Source: Hyphococcus sp. (GTDB taxonomy: Bacteria > Pseudomonadota > Alphaproteobacteria > Caulobacterales > Parvularculaceae). Taken from it: DNA of 64,000 nt. Each line of letters opens with the position of its first letter. Within the stretch, counting starts at the first letter, position 1. The position numbers were made by a program, and so were the translations under genes. Location: contig JAJFGA010000047.1 of the NCBI GenBank assembly GCA_021776375.1, forward strand, positions 1 through 64,000. Direction: 5' to 3'. The notes beneath the pieces are model-generated. The model was not told the origin of the DNA. It made no database searches and saw nothing but the letters and a program-made list of their open reading frames with translations. Below, in pieces: positions 26,798 through 64,000 of the stretch.

Positions 26798-26838
26798 TTG
26801 ACAAAAATCAAGGCGCGACAGTGTGGCGCATATATAAT
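26798..26838 (+). promoter_or_regulatory. FNR/FixK-type promoter of cfa
   Basis: TTGAC-AAAA-ATCAA at 26798-26811 fits the FNR/FixK/Dnr consensus TTGAT-N4-ATCAA at 9 of 10 positions. TATAAT lies at 26833-26838. The distance between the two centres is 31 bases, which puts the box near -41, the position of class II FNR-activated promoters. No TTGACA is placed at a usable -35. This supports cfa induction when oxygen is low; the regulator itself is not in the window. Confidence 0.68.
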
Positions 26839-26887: not shown

Positions 26888-26926
26888 ACTTGTTCTGCGT
26901 GATTGTTCCACTCGAAGGAGACAGCC

Positions 26927-28171
26927 ATGACGCTTTGGACATTATTTCTACACAACAGGCTTTCACGCGCCGTGAAAAACGGTGCGTTAGAAATTACCTA
27001 CCCCAATGGTTCGACCAAGCGTTATGGCGAGGCCGATGCCGTTCCTGTACGGATTTTGTTTAGACATGACAAGTGGGTGCGCCGTCTTGTTCTCGACCCG
27101 CAGCTCGCCTTGGGCGAAGCGTATATGGACGCAGGGTTACAAATCGAAGGTGATAAATTATACGCCCTGCTCGATTTAATCTGGGAAAACATATTGTCGA
27201 AGAAGACAGGCATCGGCCTACCCGCCTTTATGCGCCGGGTCTTGCGCCGAATTGCTCAGTTTAATCCGGCAGACCGAGCGAAGAAGAATATCGCTCATCA
27301 TTATGACGTCGGTAATGACCTCTATCGGCTTTTCCTCGATGAGGATCTTCAATATTCCTGCGCCTATTTTAAGCAACCTGGCATCTCGCTGGAAGACGCA
27401 CAGGTAGCGAAAAAAGATCTGATCGCCAGAAAACTTCTCATAAAGCCGCATCACTCAGTTCTGGAAATTGGAAGTGGGTGGGGCGGGCTTGGAATTTCTC
27501 TTGCAGAAACGGCCGGCGCTGAGGTCACCAGTGTCACCTTGTCTAAAGAACAACTCCGCGTCGCACGCATGCGCGCCAGCGCCAAGGGCTTATCCGAACA
27601 AGCACAATTCCAACTTCAAGATTATCGCGCAACAGAAGGTAACTTTGATCGCATCGTCTCTGTTGGCATGTTCGAACATGTGGGCGTGCCGCATTTTCAA
27701 GCCTATTTCGATCAGGTCGCACATCTGCTTAACGAAGACGGCATTGCACTTATCCATACAATTGGGCGCCCCCACGGCCCCGGCGCCACTGACGCCTGGA
27801 CAGCGAAGCATATCTTCCCAGGCGGATATATCCCGGCGCTGTCTGAAATCATGCCGGCGATTGAGCGTGCGGGCCTTGTTTTGACAGATTTAGAGGTGTG
27901 GCGATTGCACTATGCTGAAACCTTGCGAGAATGGCGCCGCCGCTTCAAGGCGAATGCTGAAAAAATAATCCGGAAGTATGATGCGCGATTTATCCGAATG
28001 TGGAATTATTATCTCGTGGTGAGTGAGCTATCTTTTCGTTACGGCGTACACGTAGTGTTTCAGCTGCAGCTCGCAAAGCGCCAGGACGCTGTGCCATTAA
28101 CCCGCGATTACTTAGCTACGGACCACCCGGAACACGGCATTCACGATCATCGAGAGCGTAAATACGCCTGA
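26927..28171 (+). CDS. cfa: Cyclopropane-fatty-acyl-phospholipid synthase
   Basis: Adds a methylene group from SAM to double bonds of membrane phospholipid acyl chains, which stabilises membranes in stress. I take ATG 26927 (414 residues), with GAAGGAG 8 bases upstream; the in-frame TTG 24 bases earlier has no such site. An N-terminal lipid-binding part carries LDPQLALGEAYMDAGLQ. The methyltransferase domain has NIAHHYDVGNDLYRLFLDED, SCAYFK, and the SAM motif VLEIGSGWGGLGISLAE, then EHVGVPHFQAYF and HTIGRP. The FNR-type promoter upstream suggests oxygen control. Confidence 0.94.
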   Translation: MTLWTLFLHNRLSRAVKNGALEITYPNGSTKRYGEADAVPVRILFRHDKWVRRLVLDPQLALGEAYMDAGLQIEGDKLYALLDLIWENILSKKTGIGLPAFMRRVLRRIAQFNPADRAKKNIAHHYDVGNDLYRLFLDEDLQYSCAYFKQPGISLEDAQVAKKDLIARKLLIKPHHSVLEIGSGWGGLGISLAETAGAEVTSVTLSKEQLRVARMRASAKGLSEQAQFQLQDYRATEGNFDRIVSVGMFEHVGVPHFQAYFDQVAHLLNEDGIALIHTIGRPHGPGATDAWTAKHIFPGGYIPALSEIMPAIERAGLVLTDLEVWRLHYAETLREWRRRFKANAEKIIRKYDARFIRMWNYYLVVSELSFRYGVHVVFQLQLAKRQDAVPLTRDYLATDHPEHGIHDHRERKYA

Positions 28172-28264: not shown

Positions 28265-28933
28265 TTAAACTCGCCCGCTCAACGACGCCGTCTTCAATAA
28301 GGCTTGGGCGGCGGCTTGGCCGACAAAATCGTCGCCGCAAGCACGCCACAGCCTCGCCGCTTCATCTGGAGTGGCGTTCGCTGGCATTTGGCAAAGCGCT
28401 TGAAATTGCTTGTTTGTGCGCTTGCGCGGCGCCCACTGTTCTTGCTCCATATGCGGCATCGATGCGTCCGTATCCGCACAAAATGCGCCAACCAAGGAGA
28501 AGACATTGACGGCATGCGCGTATGTCAGATCCGCCAGCTCCATGCGTTCAGAATTCGGCGGCGCCGGAAAGCGGCAGACAGCAACGATAGGCCCTGCATC
28601 CACCCGTGCGGCCATCTCGTGAGCCGTGACGCCAAAGGTTTCAGCATCCTCCCAAATTGCGAAACTCTCAGGGTGGGAACCGGGATATTCCGGTGAGCCC
28701 GGATGGATATTGTATGGGGTAATTCGAAGCCGCGATAATAATGACGGCGGAATGATTGTCCCCGCCAAAAAGGAAATGATACGGACGTTTCCGTCAAATC
28801 GGTTAACCGCCGTCGTCAAGCTGGAGAGATTATGAGCGACCGCCACAGTCAGAAACGGGTTCTGTTCCAACAGAAACTGTTGAAGAAGCGGCGCCTCGCG
28901 CCGGGCTGTGAGGATGATAATACGGCGTTGCAT
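28265..28933 (-). CDS. Stand-alone formyltransferase-domain protein
   Basis: A member of the formyl transferase fold shared by methionyl-tRNA formyltransferase and GART. With ATG 28933 it has 222 residues; an in-frame TTG 21 bases upstream is less likely. NIHPGSPEYPGSHPESFAI (75-93) gives the Asn75/His77 pair and VDAGPI gives Asp112, so the Asn-His-Asp catalytic set is complete with the usual spacing. The C-terminal OB domain of Fmt is absent and the last 60 residues match nothing I know. The formyl acceptor is therefore unknown; sugar nucleotides or small amines are possible. It converges on cfa and diverges from the phosphorylase operon. Confidence 0.78.
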   Translation of the reverse strand: MQRRIIILTARREAPLLQQFLLEQNPFLTVAVAHNLSSLTTAVNRFDGNVRIISFLAGTIIPPSLLSRLRITPYNIHPGSPEYPGSHPESFAIWEDAETFGVTAHEMAARVDAGPIVAVCRFPAPPNSERMELADLTYAHAVNVFSLVGAFCADTDASMPHMEQEQWAPRKRTNKQFQALCQMPANATPDEAARLWRACGDDFVGQAAAQALLKTASLSGRV

Positions 28934-29185
28934 GCTAACTGCTCGATAGGACAAGCCTAATGCATCAGAACATGGTTAATGTCAGGTTTCTTTCCTTATA
29001 TTACGCAGCTCCAAATTCAGGCCGCGTGGAAGCCCGCAGCCCCCCTTTCAGTGTCCGGATGGGGACCACACATCATGTTCCTTCCTGTATTTTAGCTCCA
29101 GCAGGATTTGAGAATTGGAGCCCCCTCCCGCATACTGCCGTCAAATCCAATTGCGGCGCCAGGGCTCTAGCTAAGGAAGCTACCG

Positions 29186-30700
29186 ATGTTGAAAATCAAA
29201 AAAATTGCACTGGATACGGCGCCAGAAAATACAGCATTTCTGTCGTGCCGTTGCAGCATCTATCGCGCGGAAGAATTTACCGCCCTAAAGAAGATCGAAA
29301 TTGTCGACGGCTCCAAAACGATGCTCGCAACGCTCGTTATCGCGGACGACCCGCAATTCATTGCCCATGACGAACTGGGGCTTGGTGAGCCGGCATTTCG
29401 CCGCCTTGGCTTGCCGGAAGGCGCACAGGTTGCGATCGCACAGGCTGCGCCTCCAGAGAGCCTCGATGCAGTCCGCGACAAGATTGGCGGCGCGGAAATG
29501 ACCGAAGGACAGATCAACGCCATTATCCAGGATATTGCCGCATTCCGGTATTCGCATATGGAGATCGCGGCGTTTCTTATATCCTCTGCCAGCTTCATGA
29601 CGACCAACGAAGTGCTCGCTTTAACCCATGCGATGACTAACGCCGGCGCCATTTTAGAATGGGAACAACCGATCGTTGTGGACAAACATTGCATCGGCGG
29701 CGTGCCGGGAAACAGAACGTCGATGATTGTCACGCCCATCGTTGCTGCTCACGGGCTTCCCATGCCGAAGACTTCGTCCCGTGCAATTACGTCGCCAGCG
29801 GGCACTGCTGACACAATGGAAGTTTTGGCGCGAGTCGATTTGACTACGGAAGAAATGCGCAATGTTGTCGAGCAAGAAAATGCCTGCCTCGTTTGGGGCG
29901 GCCATGTAAATTTGTCCCCGGCGGACGACGTGTTAATTTCTGTGGAGCGCCCGCTGCGAATCGATACCCATGAACAGATGGTCGCTTCAATTCTGTCCAA
30001 GAAACTAGCCGCTGGTTCGACGCATCTGTTGATTGATATACCTGTCGGTCCTTCGGCAAAGGTCCGCACTCGCAGTGAAGCCACGCGATTGCGGAAATTA
30101 TTTGAATTTGTTGGCGATCAGGCCGGTCTTCACCTCGATGTTGTTATGACGGATGGCAATCAGCCGGTTGGGCGTGGCATTGGGCCCATCCTAGAGGCCC
30201 GTGACGTCATGGGGGTCCTTCGCAACGCTCCGGATGCGCCAGGCGACCTACGCGCACGGGCAATTTTACTGGCTGGGAGAGTTCTGGAATTCGACCCCGA
30301 ATTACGCGGCGGCGGCGGGCGGGCAAGAGCTGAAGAGCTCATTGATTCAGGCGCAGCGCTCGCAGCAATGGAACGCATCATTGCAGCGCAAGGAAATGCC
30401 ACGAAGCAATATAGCCTTGGCGATATTACAACCGAGATTGAAGCTGCGCATTCAGGCATCGTCAGCGCTATGGATTGTTATCGCCTTGGCCGGATTGCAC
30501 GCCTCGCCGGGGCGCCGCTGGACAAAGGCGCCGGCATCGACCTGCTAAAAAAGATTGGCGACAAAGTCGCTGCCGGCGAAGCGCTCTACCGCATCCACTC
30601 CTGCTTCCAATCTGATTTTGATTTCGCTCTAAAAATGGCGAAGAAAAACCCTGGCGTGACGATTGATGTACAAGTGCTTGGCCAAAGGACAACCAAATGA
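29186..30700 (+). CDS. AMP phosphorylase-like enzyme (thymidine phosphorylase family)
   Basis: A nucleoside/nucleotide phosphorylase of 504 residues. An N-terminal extension of about 85 residues, as in archaeal AMP phosphorylase, precedes the catalytic part. [40 protein letters not shown] and [15 protein letters not shown] are close to the archaeal AMP phosphorylase pattern. Archaeal enzymes split AMP, CMP or UMP with phosphate into base plus ribose 1,5-bisphosphate. ATG start, with AAGGAAG 6 bases upstream. The stop overlaps the PRPP-synthetase-like gene by 4 bases. No RuBisCO or ribose-bisphosphate isomerase gene is near, so the use of the product is open. Confidence 0.85.
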
Positions 30701-31593
30701 AAGATGTTTTGCTCACCGCAATGCCGCAAGACATCAAGCAAGCCGAGCGGCTTGCGTCCGCTATGCATATCGATATGGCGCCTATAAACGTCGATATTTT
30801 TCCCGATCAGGAAACGAAAGTGCAAGCGAAGCACGCGGCGCGCAAGACCCTCCTATTGTGTTCACTCGATCGACCGAATGAAAAGCTGATCACGCTTGTT
30901 CTGGCCGCTTCCGCTCTTCGCGATCTTGGCGCCGAGGAAATCACTCTTGTTGCGCCATACCTATGTTATATGCGCCAGGACAAAGCCTTTCATAAAGGCG
31001 AGGCCATCTCGCAGCAGGTCCTCGCCAAAATCCTCACGCCATGGATTGATAAGCTCATTACAGTTGACCCCCATCTCCATCGAGTGAAAACCTTAAATGC
31101 CGTCTTCCCTGACATTCCATCGAGGTCATTATCGGCGGCCTCGCCGCTCGCTTCACTGGTTAAAAAAGATTACATAGGCGGAAATGTTTTGCTGGTCGGC
31201 CCCGACGAAGAGGCGCGCGCATGGACGGCGGCGTTGGCTGAAAAAGTGCAGCTTCCATATATCGTCCTGACAAAAGAACGCATCGGCGATCGCGCTGTCC
31301 GCGTCAATCTCCCGAAAGACAGCTCTCTAAAGGGGATGCGAGTTTATCTTCTCGATGACGTTGTATCTTCCGGCGCAACCCTTGCAGCGTCAGCGCGGCT
31401 CCTGAAAAATGCTGGCGCAAATCATGTCGAGGCGCTGACTGTCCATGCCCTCTGTACAGACGATGATTTGCGGCAAATTAAAGCCGCCGGTGTTTCACGC
31501 CTTCGAAGCACCGACACAGTTCCACACAAAACCAACGCCATTAGTATAGCGCCTTTGTTGGCGGAGGCGCTTTTCAAGGAGCTTAATGAGTGA
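30697..31593 (+). CDS. Ribose-phosphate pyrophosphokinase-like protein (class III/archaeal type)
   Basis: The 298 residues follow the PRPP synthetase plan: FPDQETKVQ (usual FPDGE), [30 protein letters not shown], and the PRPP loop [17 protein letters not shown]. The YxRQDxxFxxGEAIS and VDPHLHR forms resemble archaeal class III enzymes more than the housekeeping bacterial Prs. The GPDEEARAW segment replaces the normal DxGGxxRA flexible loop in part. It is therefore probably a second, specialised enzyme that makes PRPP, or uses ribose phosphates released by the phosphorylase. It overlaps both neighbours by 4 bases. Confidence 0.85.
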
Positions 31594-33191
31594 CGACAAC
31601 AGTCAAATTCTGCGGCGCCGCCGGAACAGTAACGGGGTCTTGCTACTGGATACGCCATAACGGGCGCGGGTTCTTGATCGATTGCGGTATGTTTCAAGGA
31701 TCAAAAACGCTGAAAGCCCTCAATTACGATGAATTTCCTTTCAAGCCGCAAGATATTGAATTCGTTCTCGTAACACACGCGCATATTGATCATAGTGGGC
31801 TGATCCCCAAGCTGGTTAAAGGCGGCTTTACCGGACATATTTATGCAACGGAAGGAACGCGCGACCTTCTGACATTTATGTTGCCGGACAGCGGCTATAT
31901 ACAAGAGACCGAAGTTGGTTTCCTCAATCGCCGAAACAAGCAGCGTGGCTTGCCGCCCGTCACGCCTATCTACACACAAGCGCAAGCTGAAAGTTCGATT
32001 GAGCATTTTGAACTCGTTGATTATGCCATGTGGCATGACTTTGGCGATGGTATTCGCGCGCGTTACTGGAACGCAGGACATATTCTGGGATCAGCCTCAA
32101 TCGAGCTCGAACTCACAGCGCCGGACACGCCAGATAAACCGATGCGCCTCCTATTTTCTGGCGATATAGGGCCGGAAAACAATTTGTTCCATCCCGATCC
32201 GGAAGGGCCGCGTAATCTCGACTATCTCATATGTGAAGCGACCTATGGTGACCGGGTGCGCGAGACGTTAAATGGGGATGAACGGCGCAAACGCCTATCG
32301 GAAGTGATAAGGCAATCGCTTGCCGATGGCGGCGTCCTGGTGATCCCTGCGTTCAGTGTCGAGCGAACACAGGAACTGCTCGCCGATATCAGCTTATTAA
32401 TGAACCAAGGGGCGATTCAACAATCCCTGGTGTTTCTTGACTCGCCGCTTGCCATAAAGGCAACCGAAACATTTGAGCGCCATGCCAAGCATCTGGAAGA
32501 TATTGATGCGAACGGCAGCCTCTTCCGAAATGAAAATTTCGTCTTCACGCGCAGTGTTGAAGAAAGCAAGAACATCAACAATTATGTTAGCGGCGCTATT
32601 ATAATAGCTGCAAGCGGAATGTGCGATGCAGGCCGAATACGTCACCATCTCAAAAGGCGGCTTTGGGAGAAAAACGCAACCATATTGATGATCGGCTTTC
32701 AGGCGCCTGGAACTTTAGGATCGCTTTTATTGGCTGGGAAAAAAGCCGTTCGAATTCAAGGCGAAGACATCACGGTGCGCGCGAAGATTAAGCAGCTCGA
32801 TATTTATTCCGGCCATGCCGATGCAGAAGGGTTGCAAGACTGGGTCCTTGCCCGGTTGCCAGTTCATCAGAAGATATTTTTAACCCATGGCGACCCAGAT
32901 GCGCTCAAAGCGTTTCAAACACGGCTGGCCGCCGCAGGCTTGTCGCCGAACCAAGTCTACATTCCCAATCTGGATGATGAATTTGAATTGACGACAAAAA
33001 CAACGCGCCAACACAAAGCGGGCCGGAGGGCGCGATTAGAGCCCAAAGCCGTCACGCAGCTCGACTGGCACAATGACCTCGCCCAACTTTCGCTGGATAT
33101 TCGTGCAGAACTTGAAAAAGCCGCCGATGAAAAAGCGAGACAAAAAACGCTGCGTCGGCTGCGCCGGGCGCTTGAAAAGGGAGAGGCATAA
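31590..33191 (+). CDS. Metallo-beta-lactamase/beta-CASP ribonuclease-like protein
   Basis: A 533-residue MBL-fold enzyme with a beta-CASP insert, the architecture of CPSF73, RNase J and Thermus TTHA0252. The zinc motif THAHIDHSG gives H63, H65, D67 and H68; WNAGHILGSASIELE, LLFSGDIGPENN and the later YSGHADAEGLQDWV and THGDPDALKAF segments give the remaining ligands. The beta-CASP part lies at about 215-400 (VLVIPAFSVERTQELL, AASGMCDAGRIRHHLK). A basic, helical tail of about 65 residues closes the chain. GTG start with AAGGAG upstream, overlapping the previous stop. RNA is the likely substrate. Confidence 0.88.
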   Translation: MTTTVKFCGAAGTVTGSCYWIRHNGRGFLIDCGMFQGSKTLKALNYDEFPFKPQDIEFVLVTHAHIDHSGLIPKLVKGGFTGHIYATEGTRDLLTFMLPDSGYIQETEVGFLNRRNKQRGLPPVTPIYTQAQAESSIEHFELVDYAMWHDFGDGIRARYWNAGHILGSASIELELTAPDTPDKPMRLLFSGDIGPENNLFHPDPEGPRNLDYLICEATYGDRVRETLNGDERRKRLSEVIRQSLADGGVLVIPAFSVERTQELLADISLLMNQGAIQQSLVFLDSPLAIKATETFERHAKHLEDIDANGSLFRNENFVFTRSVEESKNINNYVSGAIIIAASGMCDAGRIRHHLKRRLWEKNATILMIGFQAPGTLGSLLLAGKKAVRIQGEDITVRAKIKQLDIYSGHADAEGLQDWVLARLPVHQKIFLTHGDPDALKAFQTRLAAAGLSPNQVYIPNLDDEFELTTKTTRQHKAGRRARLEPKAVTQLDWHNDLAQLSLDIRAELEKAADEKARQKTLRRLRRALEKGEA

Positions 33192-33297: not shown

Positions 33298-33311
33298 TTG
33301 ATAAAGATCAT
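33298..33311 (+). promoter_or_regulatory. FNR/FixK-type box upstream of the Pcm-esterase fusion gene
   Basis: TTGAT-AAAG-ATCAT fits the FNR consensus TTGAT-N4-ATCAA at 9 of 10 positions. A weak -10 candidate TACCAA lies about 31 bases further on. The gene starts at 33409, 97 bases after the box. Confidence 0.55.
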
Positions 33312-33408
33312 TTTCTGGCGCTCCCCGCAGAAGTACCAAGACCATGCGACGACGGGCGTGTCGCCATGGCGGTGCGTCCATATCCATCGATACGCTGGAG
33401 GTATGGGT

Positions 33409-35421
33409 ATGAATTTCGAGGAACTGCGATACCGAATGGTCGAGGACCATGTCCATGCCCGGGGCGTGCGTGATGAAGCTGTATTGAAAGCCATGTCAAG
33501 CGTGCCGAGAGAGGCGTTCGTCCCTAAGAAATATCGCGAGCAGGCTTATGACGACAGCCCGTTGCCGATCGGTGAAGATCAAACGATTTCCCAACCCTAT
33601 ATCGTCGCCTTTATGATCGAGGCGCTCGCATTAACGGGCGGCGAAAAGGCGCTCGAAATCGGATCAGGGTCGGGTTACGCCGCCGCCATCCTCGCCCAAA
33701 TCTGCCATGAGGTTTATGCGATTGAGCGGATTGAAAAACTTTCACTAAGAAGTGCTCAGACCCTAAAAATGCTCGGGATTAACAATGTGCGCCTGCGCTA
33801 TGCGGATGGCTCCGAAGGGTGGCCCGATGAGGCGCCATTCGACATTATTCTTGTTTCCGCCGGTGCGCCGTCAATCCCGAAAGCACTGAAAACACAGCTA
33901 GCCATAGGCGGGCGCATGGTCGTTCCCATCGGCAAGGATCCACGGGCGCAGGAGTTAATTCGTATAACGCGTATTTCGGAGGATGAATATCTTCGCGAAG
34001 ATATCGCTGATGTGCGGTTTGTTCCTCTAATCGGCAAGGAAGGGTGGGCGCTTGACGAACCTGAATTCGTTGATGAATTTCCCCAGGGGCGGCCGCGCGT
34101 GGTTCAAACGCGTCCACAGATCGACGATGGCCTTCCCGGCCTTATAGCAGGGGCGTCGGAAGGTTTTGATAAGCTGGAGAATGTGGAGCTTGACGGTCTC
34201 CTGAAGCGCATAGGCGATGCGCGTATTGTCCTGCTAGGGGAAGCCAGTCATGGCACGTCAGAATTTTATCGTATGCGTCAGCGGATTACGCGCGCCCTGA
34301 TCGAGGAAAAGGGGTTCAATTTTATCGCTGCGGAAGCGGACTGGCCCGACGCCGCGCAAATTGATCACTATGTGCGTCACAAGGAGGCGGCGCCATCAGA
34401 GTGGACCGCGTTTGCTCGTTTCCCGACCTGGATGTGGCGCAACACTGAAGTTCGCGGCTTTATAGATTGGCTCCATGAATACAATGCGGAAAGGAACGCT
34501 AGCGAACGCGTGGGCTTCCATGGGCTCGATTTATATAGCCTTTATAGCTCGATACGCGCGGTGCTGAAATATTTTGATGCGTCAGCCCCCGAGCTCGCCG
34601 AAATTGCACGCGAGCGTTATGCTTGTTTAAGTCCTTGGGAAGCAGATCCAGCAGCTTATGGGCATGCCGCGTTGACCGGGCGTTATCGCGATTGCGAAAA
34701 ACCGGTTGTGAAGGTTTTGATCGATCTACTCAACCAACGAGAAAATTTGATCCAGGCCGATGAAAGCCGTTTCTTTGATGCTGTACAAAACGCCAAGCTA
34801 ATTGCAAACGCCGAACGCTACTATCGCATTATGTATTATGGTTCACGGGCTTCCTGGAACCTGCGCGACAATCACATGTTCGAGACTTTGAAAGCGCTCC
34901 TCACCCATCACGGACCGCAATCAAAAGGAATTGTCTGGGCTCACAATTCACATATCGGCGATGCATCAGCGACCGAAATGTCGTCTCGTGGTGAATTAAA
35001 CATTGGCGAGCTTGTTCGGCGAGAATTTGGAGAAAATGCTTATAATATTGGTTTTGGAACGGATCATGGGACAGTCGCGGCCGCAAGCGATTGGGATGGG
35101 CCGCTGGAGGTGAAATCCATACAACCATCGCACCCACAAAGTTTTGAAAGGATTTTCCACCTAACGAACAGGCCGGCATTCTTATTGCCCTTAACCCAGA
35201 ACACCATACCAGAAGTGCGTTCAGCACTTTCAAAACCCAGGCTGGAGCGAGCGATAGGCGTCGTCTATCGGCCCGAGACAGAGCGGCTCAGCCACTATTT
35301 TGAGGCTCGTCTTTCAAGACAATTTGATGAATTCATCTGGTTCGACGCCACAACCGCCGTCACGCCGCTCAAGGTCAGAGAACTAGAAGGCGTCCCCGAT
35401 ACCTATCCATTTGGACTGTAA
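33409..35421 (+). CDS. Fusion of protein-L-isoaspartate O-methyltransferase and erythromycin-esterase-like domain
   Basis: I take ATG 33409 (670 residues), 8 bases after GGAGG; an ATG two codons earlier is too close to that site. Residues 1 to about 225 are a Pcm methyltransferase, with MVEDHVHARGVRDEAVL, PIGEDQTISQPYIVAFM and the SAM motif ALEIGSGSGYAAAIL; it repairs isoaspartyl residues in aged proteins. From about 235 to 665 comes an EreA/EreC-like domain: LLGEASHGTSEFYRMR with E278 and H281, AEADWPDAAQIDHYVR, and WAHNSHIGD with H512 and H515. The residues known to matter in EreC are kept. Its natural substrate is unlikely to be a macrolide here. Confidence 0.88.
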   Translation: MNFEELRYRMVEDHVHARGVRDEAVLKAMSSVPREAFVPKKYREQAYDDSPLPIGEDQTISQPYIVAFMIEALALTGGEKALEIGSGSGYAAAILAQICHEVYAIERIEKLSLRSAQTLKMLGINNVRLRYADGSEGWPDEAPFDIILVSAGAPSIPKALKTQLAIGGRMVVPIGKDPRAQELIRITRISEDEYLREDIADVRFVPLIGKEGWALDEPEFVDEFPQGRPRVVQTRPQIDDGLPGLIAGASEGFDKLENVELDGLLKRIGDARIVLLGEASHGTSEFYRMRQRITRALIEEKGFNFIAAEADWPDAAQIDHYVRHKEAAPSEWTAFARFPTWMWRNTEVRGFIDWLHEYNAERNASERVGFHGLDLYSLYSSIRAVLKYFDASAPELAEIARERYACLSPWEADPAAYGHAALTGRYRDCEKPVVKVLIDLLNQRENLIQADESRFFDAVQNAKLIANAERYYRIMYYGSRASWNLRDNHMFETLKALLTHHGPQSKGIVWAHNSHIGDASATEMSSRGELNIGELVRREFGENAYNIGFGTDHGTVAAASDWDGPLEVKSIQPSHPQSFERIFHLTNRPAFLLPLTQNTIPEVRSALSKPRLERAIGVVYRPETERLSHYFEARLSRQFDEFIWFDATTAVTPLKVRELEGVPDTYPFGL

Positions 35422-36034: not shown

Positions 36035-36076
36035 ATAATTCACCATTATTCAATTTTGTTCATTGATCTGGATCAG
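36035..36076 (-). promoter_or_regulatory. FNR/FixK-type promoter of the phasin-like gene
   Basis: TTGAT-CTGG-ATCAG at 36063-36076 matches TTGAT-N4-ATCAA at 9 of 10 positions. On the minus strand a -10 candidate AATTAT (36035-36040) has its centre 32 bases from the box centre, again the class II spacing. The phasin ATG is 28 bases beyond the -10. Confidence 0.6.
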
Positions 36077-55709: not shown

Positions 55710-56435
55710 TTATTCTGCTGGCGCCGCGGTTGATTTGTTGTCAGATTGTTGTTTGCGCGTGCGCACGATCTGATAGCCGCGCCTGTTCAAATACCAGATC
55801 GGCGCGCTCAGCATGTGCACGAGCCGCGTAAACGGAAACACAAGAAAGATCGTCAGGCCAAGAAAGAGATGCGCCTTAAAGATCGGGTGCGCATCTGCAA
55901 CTAGCGCCGCTGCGCCGCCGCGAAACGTAAATATGCGCTGCGCCCACTCCATAAATTTCACCATCTCATGGCCATCAAGATGGTTCATCGACACGAATAT
56001 CGTCAAAAGACCGAGGCATAACTGCGCAAATATTAGCAGCAGGATCGCCATATCGCCGAAGCTTGACGTTGCGCGAACGCGCGCATCAAAAAGCCGCCGA
56101 TGAATAAGCAGGACCATACCGATAAAGCACATCACGCCAGCAAGGCCGCCAGCGACAATAGCCAGAACCTGTTTGGCGCCGTGAGAAACGCCAAGCGCAT
56201 CAAACACCCAGATCGGCGTTAAGAGACCGACAAGGTGACCAAAAAAGATGATCAGGATACCCACATGAAAGAGAACGCTTCCGACCATCAATTGTTTTCG
56301 GCGCAATAGCTGGCTTGATCCCGAGCGCCAGGAATATTGCCCGTGTTCAAAGCGCATGATTGAACCAATGAAGAGAACAGTCAGGGCGAGATATGGGTAA
56401 TATCCAAAAAGAAATTGGTTGAGATAATCCATCAT
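55710..56435 (-). CDS. narI: Respiratory nitrate reductase gamma subunit (cytochrome b)
   Basis: Membrane di-haem subunit that oxidises quinol and passes electrons to NarH. The 241 residues hold five helices. The N-terminal FGYYPYLALTVLFIGSIMRFEHGQYSWRSGSSQ with LLRRKQLMVGSVLFHVGILIIFFGHLVGLLTP gives the first haem His residues, and HLFLGLTIFLVFPFTRLVHMLSAP the second pair. A 7-base inverted repeat (55701-55707 with 55718-55724) spans its stop. It overlaps narJ by 4 bases. Confidence 0.95.
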   Translation of the reverse strand: MMDYLNQFLFGYYPYLALTVLFIGSIMRFEHGQYSWRSGSSQLLRRKQLMVGSVLFHVGILIIFFGHLVGLLTPIWVFDALGVSHGAKQVLAIVAGGLAGVMCFIGMVLLIHRRLFDARVRATSSFGDMAILLLIFAQLCLGLLTIFVSMNHLDGHEMVKFMEWAQRIFTFRGGAAALVADAHPIFKAHLFLGLTIFLVFPFTRLVHMLSAPIWYLNRRGYQIVRTRKQQSDNKSTAAPAE

Positions 56436-57145
56436 GACCGCTCTCCCGCCGGCGCCGTATCCAGGGCGGCGGTGCTGTTCACACCCATCCGCTCCAGCAT
56501 TTGGTCGACTTTCGGGCAGCCCGCTTCGTCTGGGCCAAAGGTCACCGGTTCATCTTCCCAAGCTTTATCCAGCGCTTCGAGATCATCCGGGTCGTCGTCC
56601 GGCGCCTTGCGTAATTCATCGAGTTCGGACTTGGCCGGTTCTCGTCCGGCGACCGCTTCCAAGATGCGGAACACCGCAGCATAGGGCGTCTTGCGTTTGA
56701 CGAGACGCTCCTTAAGCGCCGCGATAACGCTAAGGGGTTCGGCGAGCAGTGCGCGCGCTTCATCCACCGGACGGGTTGAAAGATACTCTAAGAACAGCGG
56801 CAGATAGTCCGGCAGCTCGCTTGCATCAACCTCTAGGCCGCCTTCTGCGTAGAGCGTCTTAAGATCGACCATCGCCTGACCGCGATCGCGCGACTCGCCA
56901 TGGACATGCTCAAAAAGATGCAGCGATAAAGACCGCGTGCGATCAAACAGGAACACATAACGTTCCTGCAGCTCGTAAAGATCGACCGACTTAAGATCGT
57001 CAATGAGCGGCGCAAGCTGGCGCAACGCCCATTCCGGCGCTAACGCCTCTTGATTAACGATGTCGCGGATTTCGCCCGCCGACTGCTTTAACTCAGCGGT
57101 CGGATAGGAAAGAAGCGCGCTAAGGGCTTTATAGGTATTCGTCAT
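56432..57145 (-). CDS. narJ: Nitrate reductase molybdenum cofactor assembly chaperone NarJ
   Basis: A 237-residue helical chaperone that holds NarGH until the molybdenum cofactor is in place. YVFLFDRTRSLSLHLFEHVHGESRDRGQAMVDL (about 65-97) and ELPDYLPLFLEYLS are the conserved NarJ/TorD segments. The C-terminal half is acidic. It lies 12 bases after narH and overlaps narI. Confidence 0.94.
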   Translation of the reverse strand: MTNTYKALSALLSYPTAELKQSAGEIRDIVNQEALAPEWALRQLAPLIDDLKSVDLYELQERYVFLFDRTRSLSLHLFEHVHGESRDRGQAMVDLKTLYAEGGLEVDASELPDYLPLFLEYLSTRPVDEARALLAEPLSVIAALKERLVKRKTPYAAVFRILEAVAGREPAKSELDELRKAPDDDPDDLEALDKAWEDEPVTFGPDEAGCPKVDQMLERMGVNSTAALDTAPAGERS

Positions 57146-57157
57146 GATGCTCGCTCC

Positions 57158-58690
57158 TCAAACTTTCTCTTTCGCCGATTTTCCTGAAGAAGGGCCTTTG
57201 GCGAAGAGCCCGGTCCATTCCACAGCCTGTTTGGGTTCGCCGCAGCCTTCGCCGAACGAAAACCCGCAGCCACCCTTCAGGTCATAGGCGTTTTCTGCAT
57301 ATTCACGGTGCGTGGTGGGGATAACGAAGCGATCTTCGTAATTGGCAATCGCCATCAGATGATACATCTCGTCAACCTGCTCCGGCGTCATGCCGACTTT
57401 TCCAGGCAGCGAAGCGTCTTCCGCGCCCTCATAGGATTTCGACCGCATATAGGCGCGCATGGCGATCAGTTTCTCCAGCGCCTGTGCGACCGGCTCTTCG
57501 TCTCCCGCGGTCAGCAGGTTTGCGAGATATTTAAGGGGGATGCGCAAATTACGGACATTTGGCATCGCGCCCTTCTCACCAAACGCGCCCGCTTCCGCCA
57601 TAGACTGAATTGGCGACAGAGGCGGCACGTACCAGACCATCGGAAGCGTGCGATATTCCGGGTGCAGCGGAAACGCGATTTTCCATTCCACCGCCATTTT
57701 ATAGATGGGTGACTTCTTCGCCGCCTCCAGCCAGGTAGCAGGAACGCCGTCAGCAAGCGCCTGGCGTTGCACTTCCGGATCATTCGGATCGAGAAAGATA
57801 TCAAGATGGCTGCCGTATAGATCGGTTTCCTTTTCAACCGCCGCCGCCTCGCCGATACGGTCAGCATCATAGAGTACGACGCCGAGATAACGGATGCGCC
57901 CGACGCAGGTTTCTGAACAAACTGTCGGCTGGCCGGATTCAAGGCGCGGGTAACACAGCGTGCATTTTTCAGATTTTCCCGATTCCCAGTTGTAGTAGAT
58001 CTTTTTATAAGGACAGCCGGAAACGCACATGCGCCAGCCTCGGCATTTGTTCTGATCGATCAGAACGACGCCGTCTTCTTCGCGTTTGTAGATCGCGCCG
58101 GATGGGCACACCGCCACGCAAGCCGGGTTAAGGCAGTGCTCGCACAAGCGCGGCAGATACATCATGAAGGTGTTTTCGAACTGCCCGTAAATTTCCTTTT
58201 CGACCTCTTGGAAATTGTAATCTTTGGAACGTTTGGAAAATTCACCGCCGAGAATTTCTTCCCAGTTCGGCCCCTTGTTGATCTTCTCCATACGCTCGCC
58301 GGTAATCAGCGAGCGCGGGCGCGCAACCGGTTGGGCGCTCATTTCCGGCGCTTTTTGCAAATGCTCGTAATCGAAAGTGAACGGCTCGTAGTAGTCGTCA
58401 ATTTCGGGTAAGTCGGGATTTGCAAAAATCTTGGCGAGCACCGAGAGCTTGCCACCCATTTTGGGCAGCAGCTTGCCGTTTTTCTTGCGCTCCCACCCGC
58501 CATTCCACTTGGCCTGGTCTTCCCAATTATCGGGATAGCCAATGCCGGGTTTTGTCTCGACATTATTGAACCAGGCATATTCAACGCCTTCTCGGTTGGT
58601 CCAGACATTCTTGCACGTCACAGAACAGGTGTGACATCCGATGCATTTATCGAGATTCAAGACCATTGAGATTTGTGCACGGATCTTCAT
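57158..58690 (-). CDS. narH: Respiratory nitrate reductase beta subunit
   Basis: Iron-sulfur subunit of 510 residues from ATG 58690, which overlaps the narG stop as ATGA. Four cluster motifs are seen: KCIGCHTCSVTCKNVW at 15-30, CEHCLNPACVAVCPSG, CRGWRMCVSGCPYKKIYYN and EKCTLCYPRLE...CVGRIRYLG. The Trp in CRGWRMC replaces a Cys, as in NarH proteins with one [3Fe-4S] cluster. It wires NarI to NarG on the cytoplasmic face. Confidence 0.96.
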   Translation of the reverse strand: MKIRAQISMVLNLDKCIGCHTCSVTCKNVWTNREGVEYAWFNNVETKPGIGYPDNWEDQAKWNGGWERKKNGKLLPKMGGKLSVLAKIFANPDLPEIDDYYEPFTFDYEHLQKAPEMSAQPVARPRSLITGERMEKINKGPNWEEILGGEFSKRSKDYNFQEVEKEIYGQFENTFMMYLPRLCEHCLNPACVAVCPSGAIYKREEDGVVLIDQNKCRGWRMCVSGCPYKKIYYNWESGKSEKCTLCYPRLESGQPTVCSETCVGRIRYLGVVLYDADRIGEAAAVEKETDLYGSHLDIFLDPNDPEVQRQALADGVPATWLEAAKKSPIYKMAVEWKIAFPLHPEYRTLPMVWYVPPLSPIQSMAEAGAFGEKGAMPNVRNLRIPLKYLANLLTAGDEEPVAQALEKLIAMRAYMRSKSYEGAEDASLPGKVGMTPEQVDEMYHLMAIANYEDRFVIPTTHREYAENAYDLKGGCGFSFGEGCGEPKQAVEWTGLFAKGPSSGKSAKEKV

Positions 58691-61600
58691 GTCGAGGCCT
58701 CCAGTTTTTGCGCGGGGCCATCCAGCCAATCGACTTTGTTCATTTTTCTGACAATCACGAATTCATCGCGGTTCGAACCCACCGTGCCATAATAGTTGAA
58801 GCCATAGGCCTGCTGGGCGTAACCGCCGATCATATGCGTCGGCTTTAATATTGCACGCGTTACCGAATTATGGATGCCGCCGCGATTGCCGGTTACTTCA
58901 GAACCCGGCACGTTTACGATTTTTTCCTGAGCGTGATACATCATGATCATGCCCGGTTTGACGCGCTGGGAAACGACGGCGCGCGCGGTTAACGCGCCAT
59001 TTGAGTTATAGGCCTCGACCCAGTCATTATCGACAATGCCGGCCTCTTTTGCGTCGTCCTCGCTCAGCCAGACAATCGGTCCCCCGCGAGACAATGTCAG
59101 CATCAACTGATTGTCCGTATAGGTTGAGTGAATGCCCCATTTCTGGTGCGGCGTGATGAAGTTAAGAACAATCTGCTTCTCGCCATTGTCCTTTTGGTTG
59201 ATTACCGGCGCGATCGCCTTTGTATCAATCGGCGGTCGGTAAACGCACAAGGTCTCCCCGAAAGCGCGCATCCATAGATGGTCCTGATAAAGCTGCTGGC
59301 GCCCGGTGAGCGTCCGCCATGGGATCAACTCATGCACATTGGTGTAGCCGGCGTTGTAACAGACCTTTTCGGACTCAATACCGGACCAGGTTGGCGAAGA
59401 AATAATCTTGCGCGGCTGGGCGACAATATCCCGGAACCGGATTTTTTCATCTTCCTTTGGCAGCGCGAGATGCGCATGTTCGCGGCCGGTCAATTTGGAA
59501 AGAGAGTTCCAGGCTTTTACTGCAACTTCGCCGTTTGTTTCCGGCGCCAGCATCAAGATCACTTCCGTTGCATCAATATCGCTTTCGATGCGCGCCATAC
59601 CTTTGGTCGGCCCGTCTTCTGTGACGACGCCGTTCAGCGCTTTGAGGTGGTCAACTTCATGTTCGGTGTTCCAGGCAATGCCTTTGCCGCCATTACCGAT
59701 CTTGGTCATGAGCGGGCCAAGCGCCGTGAAACGCTTATAAACCTCAGGATAGTTGCGCTCGACGACTGTTACCGCGGGCATGGTTTTACCAGGGATCGGT
59801 TCAACCTCGCCTTGCTTCCAGTCTTTAACATCCAGCGCCTGGCTCAACTCGCCTGGCGTGTCGTGGAGGGTCGGCGTCAACACAACGTCCTTTTCAACGC
59901 CCAGAACTTCAGGCGCGACTTCAGAAAACGACTTCGCTATGCCTTTAAAAATTTCCCAGTCGCTTTTGCTCTCCCATAGCGGGTCGACCGCATTCTGCAG
60001 GGGGTGGATAAAGGGATGCATATCCGATGTGTTGAGATCGTTTTTCTCGTACCATGTCGCTGTTGGCAGCGCGATGTCGGAATAAACGCATGTCGTCGAC
60101 ATCCTGAAATCAATGCTCACCAGGAGATCGAGTTTTCCTTCCGGCGCCTCCTCATACCAGGCGACCTCATCAGGTTTCTGCCCGCCCGTCTCGCCGAGGT
60201 CTTTGCCCTGGACGCCATGCTTCGTGCCGAGAAGATGTTTCAGGAAATATTCATGCCCCTTGCCGGAGGAACCCAGAAGATTTGAGCGCCAGACAAACAT
60301 ATTGCGCGGCCAGTTGGCTGGATCGTCCGGATCCTCGCAAGACATTTTTAGATTTCCGGACTTCAGCTCGCGCGCTACATAATCCTTCGCCTCCATCCCT
60401 GCCGCCGCTGCGTCCTTGGATATCTGCAATGGATTACGCTGCAATTGGGGCGCGGAGGGAAGCCACCCCATACGTTCGGCGCGCACATTAAAGTCGATGA
60501 GCGAGCCGCTCCATTTTCCTTCCGGCGCTACGGGTGAGATAATTTCATCAACGTCAAGCGTTTCATAGCGCCACTGATCTGTATGCGCATAGAAGAACGA
60601 CGTCGAATTCATATGGCGCGGCGGGCGCGACCAATCGAGGCCAAACGCCAGCGGCAGCCAACCGGTCTGGGGCCTTAGTTTTTCCTGACCCACATAATGC
60701 GACCAGCCGCCGCCGGACTGACCGACACATCCGCACATCACCAGCATATTGATGATGCCGCGATAATTCATGTCCATGTGGTACCAGTGATTGAGACCGG
60801 CCCCGACAATGATCATGGATTTGCCGCGGGTCTTTTCTGCGTTGTCGGCAAAGCCGCGCGCTACCGCGATCACCTGGTCAGGCGACACGCCTGTAATTTT
60901 TTCTTGCCAGGCGGGGGTGTAGGGAATGTCTTCGTCGAATGATTTCGCCGCCCACTCGCCGCCAAGCCCACGGTCAAGGCCGTAATTGGCGCACATCAAG
61001 TCAAAGACTGTCGCAACAAGCGTTTCGCCTTCCTTCAATTGAAGCCGCTTGACGGGTACGCGCCGCTCCAGCACATCCGGGTGGTCGGTGCCATGGAAAT
61101 GGTCGTGCTGGCGGTTGCCAAAATACGGAAACGCCACATCAACCGCATCATCGCGGTTGTCGATCAAAGAAATTGTGAGATCAGTGTCGTCGCCGTCAGC
61201 GGTCTTTTCTTCAAGGTTCCATTTGCCCTGCTCGCCCCAGCGAAAACCGATGGAACCGCGCGGACAGACAACGCGCCCTGCTTTCTTGTCAAAGGCGATG
61301 GTCTTCCATTCCGGGTTGTTTTCTTCCCGCAGGGAATCATCGAAATCAGAGGCGCGCACCATACGGTCCGGAACGAGCCGCCCATCTTTCTTAACGAGCC
61401 GCACCAGCATCGGCATGTCGGTATATTGGCGCGCATATTCCTGGAAATAATCGACTTGGCGGTCGAGATAAAACTCTTTGAGAATGACATGCCCGAACGC
61501 CATGGCGAGCGCTGCATCCGTTCCCTGTTTTGGCGACAGCCACACATCGCCGAATTTCGACGCCTCGGAATAATCCGGAGAAATCGTAACGGCTTTCGCG

Positions 61601-62421
61601 CCTTTGTAACGAACCTCGGTGAAGAAATGCGCATCCGGCGTTCTTGTCTGCGGCACGTTAGAGCCCCACAGCATGATAAACCCGGAATTATACCAGTCGG
61701 CGCTTTCCGGGACGTCGGTCTGCTCGCCCCAGGTCATCGGGCTCGCTGGCGGCAGATCGCAATACCAGTCGTAAAAACTCATGCACGTCCCGCCGAGGAG
61801 CGAGAGATAACGCGAGCCCGCCGCATAGGAGACCATGGACATTGCCGGGATCGGTGAAAAACCGATGATCCGGTCGGGTCCGTGTTTCTTCGCCGTGTAA
61901 GCGTTGGCGGCAGCGATAATCTCGTTCACCTCGGCCCAATCGGCGCGCAGAAAACCGCCATGGCCACGCACTTTCACATAAGATGCACGCTTTTCCGGAT
62001 TTTCAACGATCGACGCCCACGCCGCGACCGGCTCACGAACCGCCCGCGCTTCACGCCAGGCTTTCAGCAACCGACTTCGGATAAGCGGATGCTTCAGGCG
62101 GTTGCCGCTATAAAGATACCAGCTATAGCTGGCGCCGCGCGAGCAGCCGCGCGGTTCGTGGTTCGGCAAATCAGGCCGGGTCCGTGGGTAGTCCGTCTGC
62201 TGTGTTTCCCATGTGACGATCCCGCCTTTGACGTAAATCTTCCAGCTGCAGGACCCCGTGCAATTGGCGCCATGGGTTGAGCGCACAATTTTGTCATGCT
62301 GCCAACGCTTGCGATAGGCGTCTTCCCAGGTTCTATCCTCCTTGGTGACAACACCATGACCGTCGGAGAAATCGCTAACGCGGTTCTTAAAGTAGGAAAG
62401 GCGATTTAGAATATGGCTCAT
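58687..62421 (-). CDS. narG: Respiratory nitrate reductase alpha subunit (molybdopterin, nitrate-reducing)
   Basis: Catalytic subunit that reduces nitrate to nitrite, 1244 residues, the normal NarG length. The FS0 cluster ligands are H50, C54, C58 (THGANCTGSCSW) and C93 (EPRGCSRG). D222 in YDWYCDLPPASP is the molybdenum ligand and has the same number as in E. coli. No Tat signal is present; like other NarG proteins it stays on the cytoplasmic side. It follows narK by 52 bases and overlaps narH by 4. Confidence 0.97.
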   Translation of the reverse strand: MSHILNRLSYFKNRVSDFSDGHGVVTKEDRTWEDAYRKRWQHDKIVRSTHGANCTGSCSWKIYVKGGIVTWETQQTDYPRTRPDLPNHEPRGCSRGASYSWYLYSGNRLKHPLIRSRLLKAWREARAVREPVAAWASIVENPEKRASYVKVRGHGGFLRADWAEVNEIIAAANAYTAKKHGPDRIIGFSPIPAMSMVSYAAGSRYLSLLGGTCMSFYDWYCDLPPASPMTWGEQTDVPESADWYNSGFIMLWGSNVPQTRTPDAHFFTEVRYKGAKAVTISPDYSEASKFGDVWLSPKQGTDAALAMAFGHVILKEFYLDRQVDYFQEYARQYTDMPMLVRLVKKDGRLVPDRMVRASDFDDSLREENNPEWKTIAFDKKAGRVVCPRGSIGFRWGEQGKWNLEEKTADGDDTDLTISLIDNRDDAVDVAFPYFGNRQHDHFHGTDHPDVLERRVPVKRLQLKEGETLVATVFDLMCANYGLDRGLGGEWAAKSFDEDIPYTPAWQEKITGVSPDQVIAVARGFADNAEKTRGKSMIIVGAGLNHWYHMDMNYRGIINMLVMCGCVGQSGGGWSHYVGQEKLRPQTGWLPLAFGLDWSRPPRHMNSTSFFYAHTDQWRYETLDVDEIISPVAPEGKWSGSLIDFNVRAERMGWLPSAPQLQRNPLQISKDAAAAGMEAKDYVARELKSGNLKMSCEDPDDPANWPRNMFVWRSNLLGSSGKGHEYFLKHLLGTKHGVQGKDLGETGGQKPDEVAWYEEAPEGKLDLLVSIDFRMSTTCVYSDIALPTATWYEKNDLNTSDMHPFIHPLQNAVDPLWESKSDWEIFKGIAKSFSEVAPEVLGVEKDVVLTPTLHDTPGELSQALDVKDWKQGEVEPIPGKTMPAVTVVERNYPEVYKRFTALGPLMTKIGNGGKGIAWNTEHEVDHLKALNGVVTEDGPTKGMARIESDIDATEVILMLAPETNGEVAVKAWNSLSKLTGREHAHLALPKEDEKIRFRDIVAQPRKIISSPTWSGIESEKVCYNAGYTNVHELIPWRTLTGRQQLYQDHLWMRAFGETLCVYRPPIDTKAIAPVINQKDNGEKQIVLNFITPHQKWGIHSTYTDNQLMLTLSRGGPIVWLSEDDAKEAGIVDNDWVEAYNSNGALTARAVVSQRVKPGMIMMYHAQEKIVNVPGSEVTGNRGGIHNSVTRAILKPTHMIGGYAQQAYGFNYYGTVGSNRDEFVIVRKMNKVDWLDGPAQKLEAST

Positions 62422-62473
62422 GGTTCAATCCTGGAAGGGTTGCAGTTGTAGGCAGCGTTTGTTTTGTTTGCGA

Positions 62474-64000
62474 TCATGGGTTCTTCACATAAGCGTCTTT
62501 GCGGAGGTAGAACCACCAGTTGATCACGATACAGAGTATATAGAATAAGGCGAAGCCGTAGAGCGCGTATTCCGGCGTCGTCGCCTTAATCTGTTCGCCA
62601 AAGACTTTTGGAATGATAAAGGCGCCGTAAGCGGCGACGGCTGAAGTCCAGCCGAGAACCGGGCCAGCCTGCTCTTTGTCGAAAACGATTGCGATCGTGC
62701 GGAAGGTCGAGCCATTGCCGATGCCGGTGGCGGCGAAGAGGATAAGGAACAACGCCAGGAAAGGAATAAAGTATTCCTCTGGTGTCGCCGATCCGTATGC
62801 CTGTTTCATGAAATAAGCGACGCCGAGTGCGCTCGCGACCATGACGACCGAGATAATCTGCGTCACCTTCGCGCCGCCGATTTTGTCGGCGATCATCCCA
62901 CCGAACGGGCGGATGAGCGCGCCAATGAATGGGCCGGTCCAGGCGAACATCAAGGCGCTTGGTCCGTTGGGATTGGACAGGTCATGGGTCATAACACCGT
63001 CAACCATGACATGCTGAAACCCGAAAATGACTTTGATGGCGAGACCAAATGCGGCCGCGTAACCGATGAACGATCCAAACGTCATCGTATAGATGACGGT
63101 CATTGCCCATGTGTGTTTGTTGTTGAAGATCTTGTATTGGTGATTGAGGCTCTTGCGGATCGCACCGGGAATTAGTTTCAACGCATATACTGTAGCGGCG
63201 ATCACCAGCGGCAACACGATCCATTTGGAAACACCCCAACCGGAGCCACCCGCATTGGCCGGCAGCATCAGCCATAACCCGGCGGACGCCGTGAGCAAAC
63301 CGATAAACAGCATGCCGAGGATTTTACTGAACGCTGCAATGGGCGAGCCGATATTCGGCGAGACATGTTCATCAACGATATTGTTCATGCCGAACCAGGC
63401 GGCGACAACAATAGGGACGAGAATTGCGACCCAGATGAAGCCCGCATTGTGGAGATAGGTTTCGGTGCCGGCAGGGATCTTCCCGATCAGCGTGCCGGAT
63501 GTGTTTTCCAACACCATTGGCGCGCCGCCGAACACAGCCGCCGTCATGACCAGCGGGATCAGGATCTGCATGGTCGTCACGCCAAAATTGCCAAGGCCTG
63601 CATTCATGCCCAGCGAATAACCGGCCATCTTTTTTGGAAAGAAAAAGCTAATGTTTGACATCGACGAGGCAAAGTTGCCGCCGCCAAAGCCAGAGAGCAA
63701 CGCCATCATTTGAAACTGCCAGAGCGGCGTGTCGGGGTTTTGCAACAATATGCCGGTGCCTGCCGCAGGGATGATGAGAAGCGCCGTTGTCAGGAAGATC
63801 GTGTTGCGCCCGCCCGCCATACGAATGAAAAACGTCGACGGGATGCGCAAAGTCGCCCCGGTGAGACCCGCGATCGAGGCAAGCGTAAACAACTCTGACT
63901 GGCTGAACGCGAAACCCAAATTAATCATCTGGACCGTGATGATGCCCCAATAGAGCCAGACAGCAAAACCGCAAAGCAGAGCCGGTATTGAAATCCAGAG
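62474..64000 (-). CDS. narK: Nitrate/nitrite transporter NarK (MFS), N-terminus outside the window
   Basis: A 12-helix transporter of the NarK2 type. The frame runs past Met 63928 to the window edge, where 24 further residues (LWISIPALLCGFAVWLYWG...) form the first helix, so the true start is outside. NNP signature segments are visible: LTGATLRIPSTFFIRMAGGRN, LLSGFGGGNFASSMSNISFFFPKKMAGYSLGMNAGLGNFGV and GPFIGALIRPFGGMIADKIGGAKVT. It exchanges or imports nitrate for NarGHI and heads the operon. Confidence 0.93.
   Translation of the reverse strand, partial: LWISIPALLCGFAVWLYWGIITVQMINLGFAFSQSELFTLASIAGLTGATLRIPSTFFIRMAGGRNTIFLTTALLIIPAAGTGILLQNPDTPLWQFQMMALLSGFGGGNFASSMSNISFFFPKKMAGYSLGMNAGLGNFGVTTMQILIPLVMTAAVFGGAPMVLENTSGTLIGKIPAGTETYLHNAGFIWVAILVPIVVAAWFGMNNIVDEHVSPNIGSPIAAFSKILGMLFIGLLTASAGLWLMLPANAGGSGWGVSKWIVLPLVIAATVYALKLIPGAIRKSLNHQYKIFNNKHTWAMTVIYTMTFGSFIGYAAAFGLAIKVIFGFQHVMVDGVMTHDLSNPNGPSALMFAWTGPFIGALIRPFGGMIADKIGGAKVTQIISVVMVASALGVAYFMKQAYGSATPEEYFIPFLALFLILFAATGIGNGSTFRTIAIVFDKEQAGPVLGWTSAVAAYGAFIIPKVFGEQIKATTPEYALYGFALFYILCIVINWWFYLRKDAYVKNP

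Follow-up and report, generated by a model that had tools for sequence, protein, structure and literature searches.

Ribose 1,5-bisphosphate (R15P) metabolism is known mainly from RuBisCO-bearing archaea and from phosphonate breakdown, where the ribose 1,5-bisphosphokinase PhnN phosphorylates R15P to phosphoribosyl pyrophosphate (PRPP), leaving ADP. In the archaeal nucleoside monophosphate (NMP) shunt of Thermococcus kodakarensis, composed of the phosphorylase TK0352, R15P isomerase, and RuBisCO, the phosphorylase acts on AMP, CMP, and UMP (PMC9700705). Halophilic archaea have a RuBisCO-free R15P metabolism, the non-carboxylating pentose bisphosphate pathway, with R15P isomerase, ribulose 1,5-bisphosphate phosphatase, and ribulose 1-phosphate aldolase but no NMP phosphorylase (PMC9700705). 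Here, we describe a three-gene locus in a 64,000-nucleotide stretch of Hyphococcus sp. DNA (Parvularculaceae; GenBank assembly GCA_021776375.1, contig JAJFGA010000047.1; hereafter the window), encoding a phosphorylase homologue (P1), a PRPP-synthetase paralogue (P2), and a beta-CASP nuclease (P3). We read this trio, with about an even chance of being right, as a low-oxygen or stress module in which NMPs are split into free base and R15P and P2 serves as the R15P outlet, towards either ribose 5-phosphate (R5P) or PRPP. The same three families occur in the same order as bll3117-bll3116-bll3115 of Bradyrhizobium diazoefficiens, where they are known from expression tables alone, no function being given in the papers found.

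The host genome measures 3.1 Mb and is 84% complete. The three genes are arranged as follows.

29186-30700, forward strand: P1, 504 aa, ATG start, NMP (AMP) phosphorylase-like protein of the bacterial TIGR02645/PRK04350 type
30697-31593, forward strand: P2, 298 aa, ATG start, PRPP-synthetase paralogue, PRK07199
31590-33191, forward strand: P3, 533 aa, GTG start, beta-CASP metallo-nuclease

Four bases are shared at each junction, the P2 start lying inside the P1 stop (ATGA at 30697-30700) and the P3 start inside the P2 stop (GTGA at 31590-31593), which confirms the overlaps that a first-pass annotation had reported for positions 29186-33191.

P1 exceeds the cut-offs of both PRK04350 (680 bits) and TIGR02645 (623 bits), which define a group of bacterial and archaeal proteins that is named "putative thymidine phosphorylase" and counts AMP phosphorylase among its members. 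Its sequence spans the N-terminal extension of the archaeal-type family. Its closest PDB relatives, 4ga5 and 4ga4, are labelled "putative thymidine phosphorylase" and are presumably the T. kodakarensis AMP phosphorylase. Of the positions at which at least 95% of bacterial P1s agree, about 28 have the residue of the T. kodakarensis enzyme and not that of pyrimidine-nucleoside phosphorylase (pyNP); P174, N176, S198, A200-S203, W237, and K292 are among them. P1 is thus homologous to the phosphorylase of the archaeal NMP shunt and has its specific residues in common, with R15P as the expected product. P1 is quite likely an NMP phosphorylase that converts NMP and inorganic phosphate (Pi) to base and R15P, with a putative specificity for NMPs in the trio.

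The strongest sequence evidence that the P1 enzyme family makes or uses R15P comes from fusions with PhnN. In two genomes (G343 and G397), one reading frame encodes a PhnN domain (168.8 and 164.4 bits against an equivalog cut-off of 156) and, after it, a P1 homologue, and plasmids of Variovorax sp. SRS16 and Pacificitalea manganoxidans encode proteins of the same type, named PhnN (717 and 708 aa), in which the P1 part was matched. Because PhnN phosphorylates R15P to PRPP, its fusion to a P1 homologue ties the family to this intermediate; the link reaches the P1 of the trio by homology and not directly, since the fused P1s are divergent. G343, G397, and a third genome with a truncated P1 (G349) have one PRPP synthetase each and no P2. 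The nadC gene directly precedes the fusion in both plasmids and likewise lies upstream of it in G343. Such a locus suggests a PRPP-recycling cycle, in which quinolinate and PRPP would yield nicotinate mononucleotide (NaMN), CO2, and pyrophosphate, NaMN and Pi would yield nicotinate and R15P, and R15P and ATP would yield PRPP again. To our knowledge, no quinolinate-to-nicotinate route of this type has been described. Loci with nadC and the PhnN-NMP phosphorylase fusion were seen at L119:7425-10077 (+), L120:9162-11219 (-), L158:5292-8287, and L159:5261-8227, and a tripartite/TRAP transporter gene lies nearby in two plasmids.

The distribution of P1 is patchy, even within one genus. P1 exceeds the cut-off in 27 of 100 relatives' genomes (own genome counted), and in the 29 loci from relatives it adjoins P2 and P3 with few exceptions, in the order P1-P2-P3 or P3-P1-P2. 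A contig scan found only four near relatives. In a phylum-wide sample, P1 was present in 43 of 378 genomes (41 over the cut-off), or about 11% of Pseudomonadota-level genomes. Over 78 P1 loci, which include those on plasmids and are partly interdependent, P2 occurs in 74 and P3 in 51; the trio is therefore conserved together, and the lack of joint conservation that the annotation had named as a possible objection does not apply. The P1-P2 pairing spans Pseudomonadota, Chlamydiota, and Bacteroidota and is often plasmid-borne, with plasmid copies in Sphingobium, Novosphingobium, Variovorax, Cupriavidus, Legionella, and Methylophaga and, outside Pseudomonadota, in Criblamydia (Chlamydiota) and Pontibacter (Bacteroidota). 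For P1 and P2, the distances correlate at r = 0.76 over 67 non-redundant loci, against at most 0.10 in 2000 permutations, and for P1 and P3 at 0.88; these values show co-inheritance rather than interaction, as shared species history contributes to them. We read P1, P2, and P3 as one translationally coupled, horizontally mobile module. The Burkholderia lxa locus was rejected as a further instance: BCAM0300 belongs to the metallo-beta-lactamase family, but BCAM0301 and BCAM0302 are neither phosphorylase nor PRPP synthetase. A role in anti-phage defence was also rejected, PADLOC giving no match for P1 or P3 and only weak phosphoribosyltransferase-domain matches for P2.

Possible outlets for R15P were surveyed with profile cut-offs in 62 P1 carriers, among which draft genomes may miss genes. 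R15P isomerase exceeded its cut-off in none of the 62 and PhnN was present in 12, so that most carriers have no known R15P outlet except possibly P2; other phosphatases or mutases are possible outlets as well. Matches to R15P isomerase of 138 to 187 bits were rejected against the cut-off of 314 and are presumably MtnA-like proteins, and PhnN matches below 60 bits were discarded as probable guanylate kinases. In the own genome, at 84% completeness, neither RuBisCO, R15P isomerase, PhnN, nor phosphoketolase was detected, and the R15P isomerase-RuBisCO pair that marks the NMP shunt is accordingly not found. RuBisCO was also found in none of the 27 carriers of the same order, which bears out the annotation's remark that RuBisCO is missing here. 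A RuBisCO-family protein does occur in 20 of the 62 carriers, yet none of the 62 has R15P isomerase over the cut-off, and RuBisCO absence is therefore not diagnostic. The trio thus departs from the archaeal shunt in having no R15P isomerase in its carriers, no RuBisCO in its own order, and a PRPP-synthetase paralogue and a beta-CASP nuclease coupled to the phosphorylase, and from the halophile pathway in having a phosphorylase and no isomerase. Each of the 62 carriers has a PRPP synthetase, 57 of them more than one, and the own genome carries P2 and a housekeeping copy. Because nearly all carriers have the housekeeping enzyme besides P2, an extra PRPP supply is not an obvious need.

P2 matches PRK07199 at 345 bits and carries the VDPHLHR motif. 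It fails the cut-off of the archaeal equivalog PRK00934 (203 versus 296 bits), and in a tree with two archaeal sequences only, P2 sequences form a single clade of their own (support 100/98), apart from housekeeping and archaeal sequences. Of the two proteins that the first-pass annotation had called archaeal-like, P2 has a relative likeness only and is not simply an archaeal class III PRPP synthetase. Residues covering the adenine, triphosphate, metal, catalysis, and R5P roles are kept in 73 P2s (F35, D37, E39, R93, Q94, D95, H126, D170, K193, R195, D220, D221, and T228). The fold and catalytic residues of PRPP synthetase (EC 2.7.6.1; FPDxE, RQD, H126, D170, K193/R195, D220/D221/T228) are accordingly present, but the housekeeping PHxxQ and PDxGG motifs are not, P2 having R129 for Q and E172 for G. 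H128, R129, G168, and E172 are invariant in the 73 P2 sequences, and W176 is nearly so; 17 housekeeping PRPP synthetases have Q at position 129 and G at 172 (P2 numbering), and H128, R129, and E172 are found in none of these or of two archaeal sequences. A 28-sequence alignment agrees on the clade-only residues. The AlphaFold2 model of P2 (mean pLDDT, 95.6) has the PRPP-synthetase fold, with the T. volcanium and M. jannaschii PRPP synthetases 3mbi and 1u9y as best PDB matches. P2 thus has the fold and every catalytic residue in common with the housekeeping enzyme and is set apart from it by its clade and by H128, R129, and E172.

PRPP synthetase uses R5P and ATP and moves a diphosphoryl group to the C1-OH of R5P; its known chemistry includes no single-phosphate addition to R15P. 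In human PRS1, the residue corresponding to P2 R129 is Q133, which touches D98 in the catalytic loop, and the H130A variant (H130 corresponds to P2 H126) gives ADP in place of AMP, with no sugar product reported (PMC4363470). By analogy, the latter result suggests that the active site may be shifted towards single-phosphoryl transfer, ATP hydrolysis being the alternative. The reaction R15P + AMP -> R5P + ADP would amount to PRPP-synthetase chemistry in reverse, with R15P in place of PRPP. That P2 acts on R15P is somewhat less likely than not. A 2026 preprint on PRPP-synthetase evolution distinguishes several extra bacterial classes, which may include P2 under another name; a text search found no mention of a phosphorylase in it (PMC13252144).

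P3 contains the Lactamase_B, Beta-Casp, and RMMBL Pfam domains that, together with the metal motifs, mark a beta-CASP nuclease. The full zinc set noted in the annotation is in place, with HAHIDH at 63, GHILGS at 163, SGDIG at 190, and SGHADAEGL at 407. Across 49 P3 homologues, 63 positions are invariant or nearly so, the histidines and aspartates of the motifs among them, and the nearest solved relative in the PDB is TTHA0252. P3 may be the supplier of NMPs from RNA.

The neighbourhood of the trio was examined over 75 loci. Heavy-metal (copper) P-type ATPases (19), phosphoketolase (10), universal stress protein (Usp) (10), and acetate kinase (8) recur most often, together with an alternate F1F0-ATPase (6), the cyclopropane fatty acid synthase gene cfa (6, window included), and phosphoenolpyruvate synthase/PPDK-like genes (6); the trio often lies within metal- and stress-resistance islands. 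Only four of the 100 relatives have a convincing phosphoketolase-like gene, of a divergent type. Each of them is also a trio carrier, with the gene and the trio no more than about 5 kb apart on one contig (Fisher p = 0.0045, relatedness ignored). In the phylum sample, phosphoketolase occurs in 14 of 43 P1 carriers versus 49 of 335 other genomes (p = 0.0075, relatedness ignored). Phosphoketolase matches in 641-aa frames were rejected as weak and look like other thiamine-diphosphate enzymes. In B. diazoefficiens, expression of bll3117-bll3116-bll3115 rises in microoxia and depends on FixK2, a box lying at -74, and the phosphoketolase-acetate kinase pair bll2518-2517 belongs to the same FixK2 regulon (PMC6515984, PMC9104804). 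The published Bradyrhizobium box is present in loci L128 and L131, and L130 has a one-base variant. Over all loci, upstream FNR/FixK-type boxes are modestly enriched (11 of 73 versus 94 of 1405 control genes; p = 0.012, relatedness ignored). In several lineages, the surroundings of the trio suggest low-oxygen energy metabolism no less than PRPP recycling.

Combining these lines, we propose that P3 would yield 5'-NMPs from RNA and that P1, in a step for which homology and the PhnN fusion are good evidence, would phosphorolyse NMP and Pi to free base and R15P, like the archaeal NMP phosphorylase. P2 would then be the outlet for R15P, because R15P isomerase with RuBisCO and PhnN are missing or undetected in most carriers. 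It would play a role like that of PhnN, to which it is unrelated, P2 having the PRPP-synthetase fold and PhnN making PRPP and ADP. Our preferred P2 reaction uses the same active site to move a phosphoryl group, R15P + AMP (or ADP) <-> R5P + ADP (or ATP). The R5P would feed the pentose-phosphate and phosphoketolase routes, with PRPP as an alternative product, and the module would serve cells short of energy or oxygen by opening ribonucleotides as a source of carbon, energy, and bases. That the NMPs come from RNA and that flux runs in this direction are inferences.

The trio might instead recycle RNA through NMPs and R15P to PRPP, with P2 making PRPP from R15P directly or from R5P made elsewhere, which is close to the model of the first-pass annotation. 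The conserved unit, the signature residues of P1, and the PhnN fusion speak for that model, which thereby has partial support, and R15P-to-PRPP logic is found in the sister module, where the P1 homologue fused to PhnN stands behind the PRPP-consuming nadC; the active site and fold of PRPP synthetase are also intact in P2. However, making PRPP from R15P with P2 is a missing step in known chemistry, carriers already have a housekeeping PRPP synthetase, and PRPP is not a substrate of the neighbouring phosphoketolase and acetate kinase, which work on sugar phosphates and acetyl phosphate. We consider this explanation rather unlikely. The association with a nuclease and with phosphoketolase and acetate kinase favours breakdown, which also weighs against a salvage direction, in which P2 would make R15P (or PRPP) from R5P and P1 would join it to free bases, giving NMPs more cheaply than the PRPP route. 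Phosphorolysis is reversible, P2 retains its ATP and R5P residues, and the NMP-forming direction has been discussed for Thermococcus (PMC9700705), but we regard salvage as improbable.

Another explanation takes the trio as a housekeeping cassette of a thymidine or uridine phosphorylase, an extra PRPP synthetase, and an ordinary RNase, all mere passengers of stress islands. It would suit the database names (thymidine phosphorylase and ribose-phosphate diphosphokinase) and the fact that plasmids and metal- and stress-resistance islands often carry the trio. It sits poorly with the NMP-phosphorylase rather than pyNP signature of P1, with a P1-P2 coupling that survives rearrangement of gene order and crosses phyla, and with the clade-only active-site residues of P2, and is quite improbable.

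Several points also count against the low-oxygen module with P2 as R15P outlet that we prefer. P1 scores below the cut-off of TIGR03327, the archaeal-type AMP/NMP phosphorylase equivalog (467 versus 535 bits), and its substrate could therefore differ. With all the canonical catalytic residues in place, P2 may be no more than an enzyme that forms PRPP from R5P. Moving the 1-phosphate of R15P onto ADP probably costs energy, and R5P would have to be drawn off for the reaction to run. About a third of the loci lack P3, which is thus a dispensable part of the module. The low-oxygen link comes from other lineages, since the window trio has no FNR-type box directly upstream, for which reason FNR/FixK control of it was rejected, and its genome has no detected phosphoketolase. 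Finally, our literature search found no assay of any bacterial member of the module, no paper giving it a function (most subscription journals lay outside the search), and nothing on R15P with PRPP synthase.

Around the trio, the window contains the following features.

26798-26811, forward strand: exact FNR/FixK-type box TTGACAAAAATCAA, upstream of cfa
26924-28171, forward strand: cfa, the recurrent trio neighbour (6 of 75 loci)
33298-35421, forward strand: fusion gene of the PCMT (protein-L-isoaspartate methyltransferase) and erythromycin-esterase families, just downstream of the trio

The true start of the fusion gene is probably downstream of the listed TTG. Two FNR-type boxes weaker than the exact one lie at 33298-33311 (one mismatch) and at 36063; as the window holds 12 FNR-type near-matches versus 7.2 expected, single sites are weak evidence. 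Divergent from the trio, at 28265-28954 on the reverse strand, is a short formyltransferase-like protein (Formyl_trans_N), too short for a methionyl-tRNA formyltransferase. At 55710-63928, narI-narJ-narH-narG-like genes and a NarK-type transporter, as read from the sequence, suggest nitrate respiration. In the closest relative locus (L031:3006-9658 (+), genome G024), alternate F1F0-ATPase-like genes end about 33 bases before P1, and such genes also lie near the trio in L034, L066, L071, L122, and L137. In L048 and L064 (Marinicaulis OFTM304), the first 6 kb or so downstream of the trio (about 4 to 9 kb along the contig) contain several exact FNR-type boxes, hinting at a low-oxygen gene island.

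In its most specific form, our proposal makes P2 a new enzyme on the PRPP-synthetase fold (R15P + AMP/ADP <-> R5P + ADP/ATP), part of a RuBisCO-free, RNA-consuming low-oxygen energy route via R5P and phosphoketolase, which on present evidence is rather unlikely. The module genes are currently annotated as "thymidine phosphorylase" and "PRPP synthetase." If our main reading of the module is right, a widespread "PRPP synthetase" would be misannotated, and many bacteria, including rhizobia in microoxia, would use a nucleotide-degrading route that is absent from metabolic maps.

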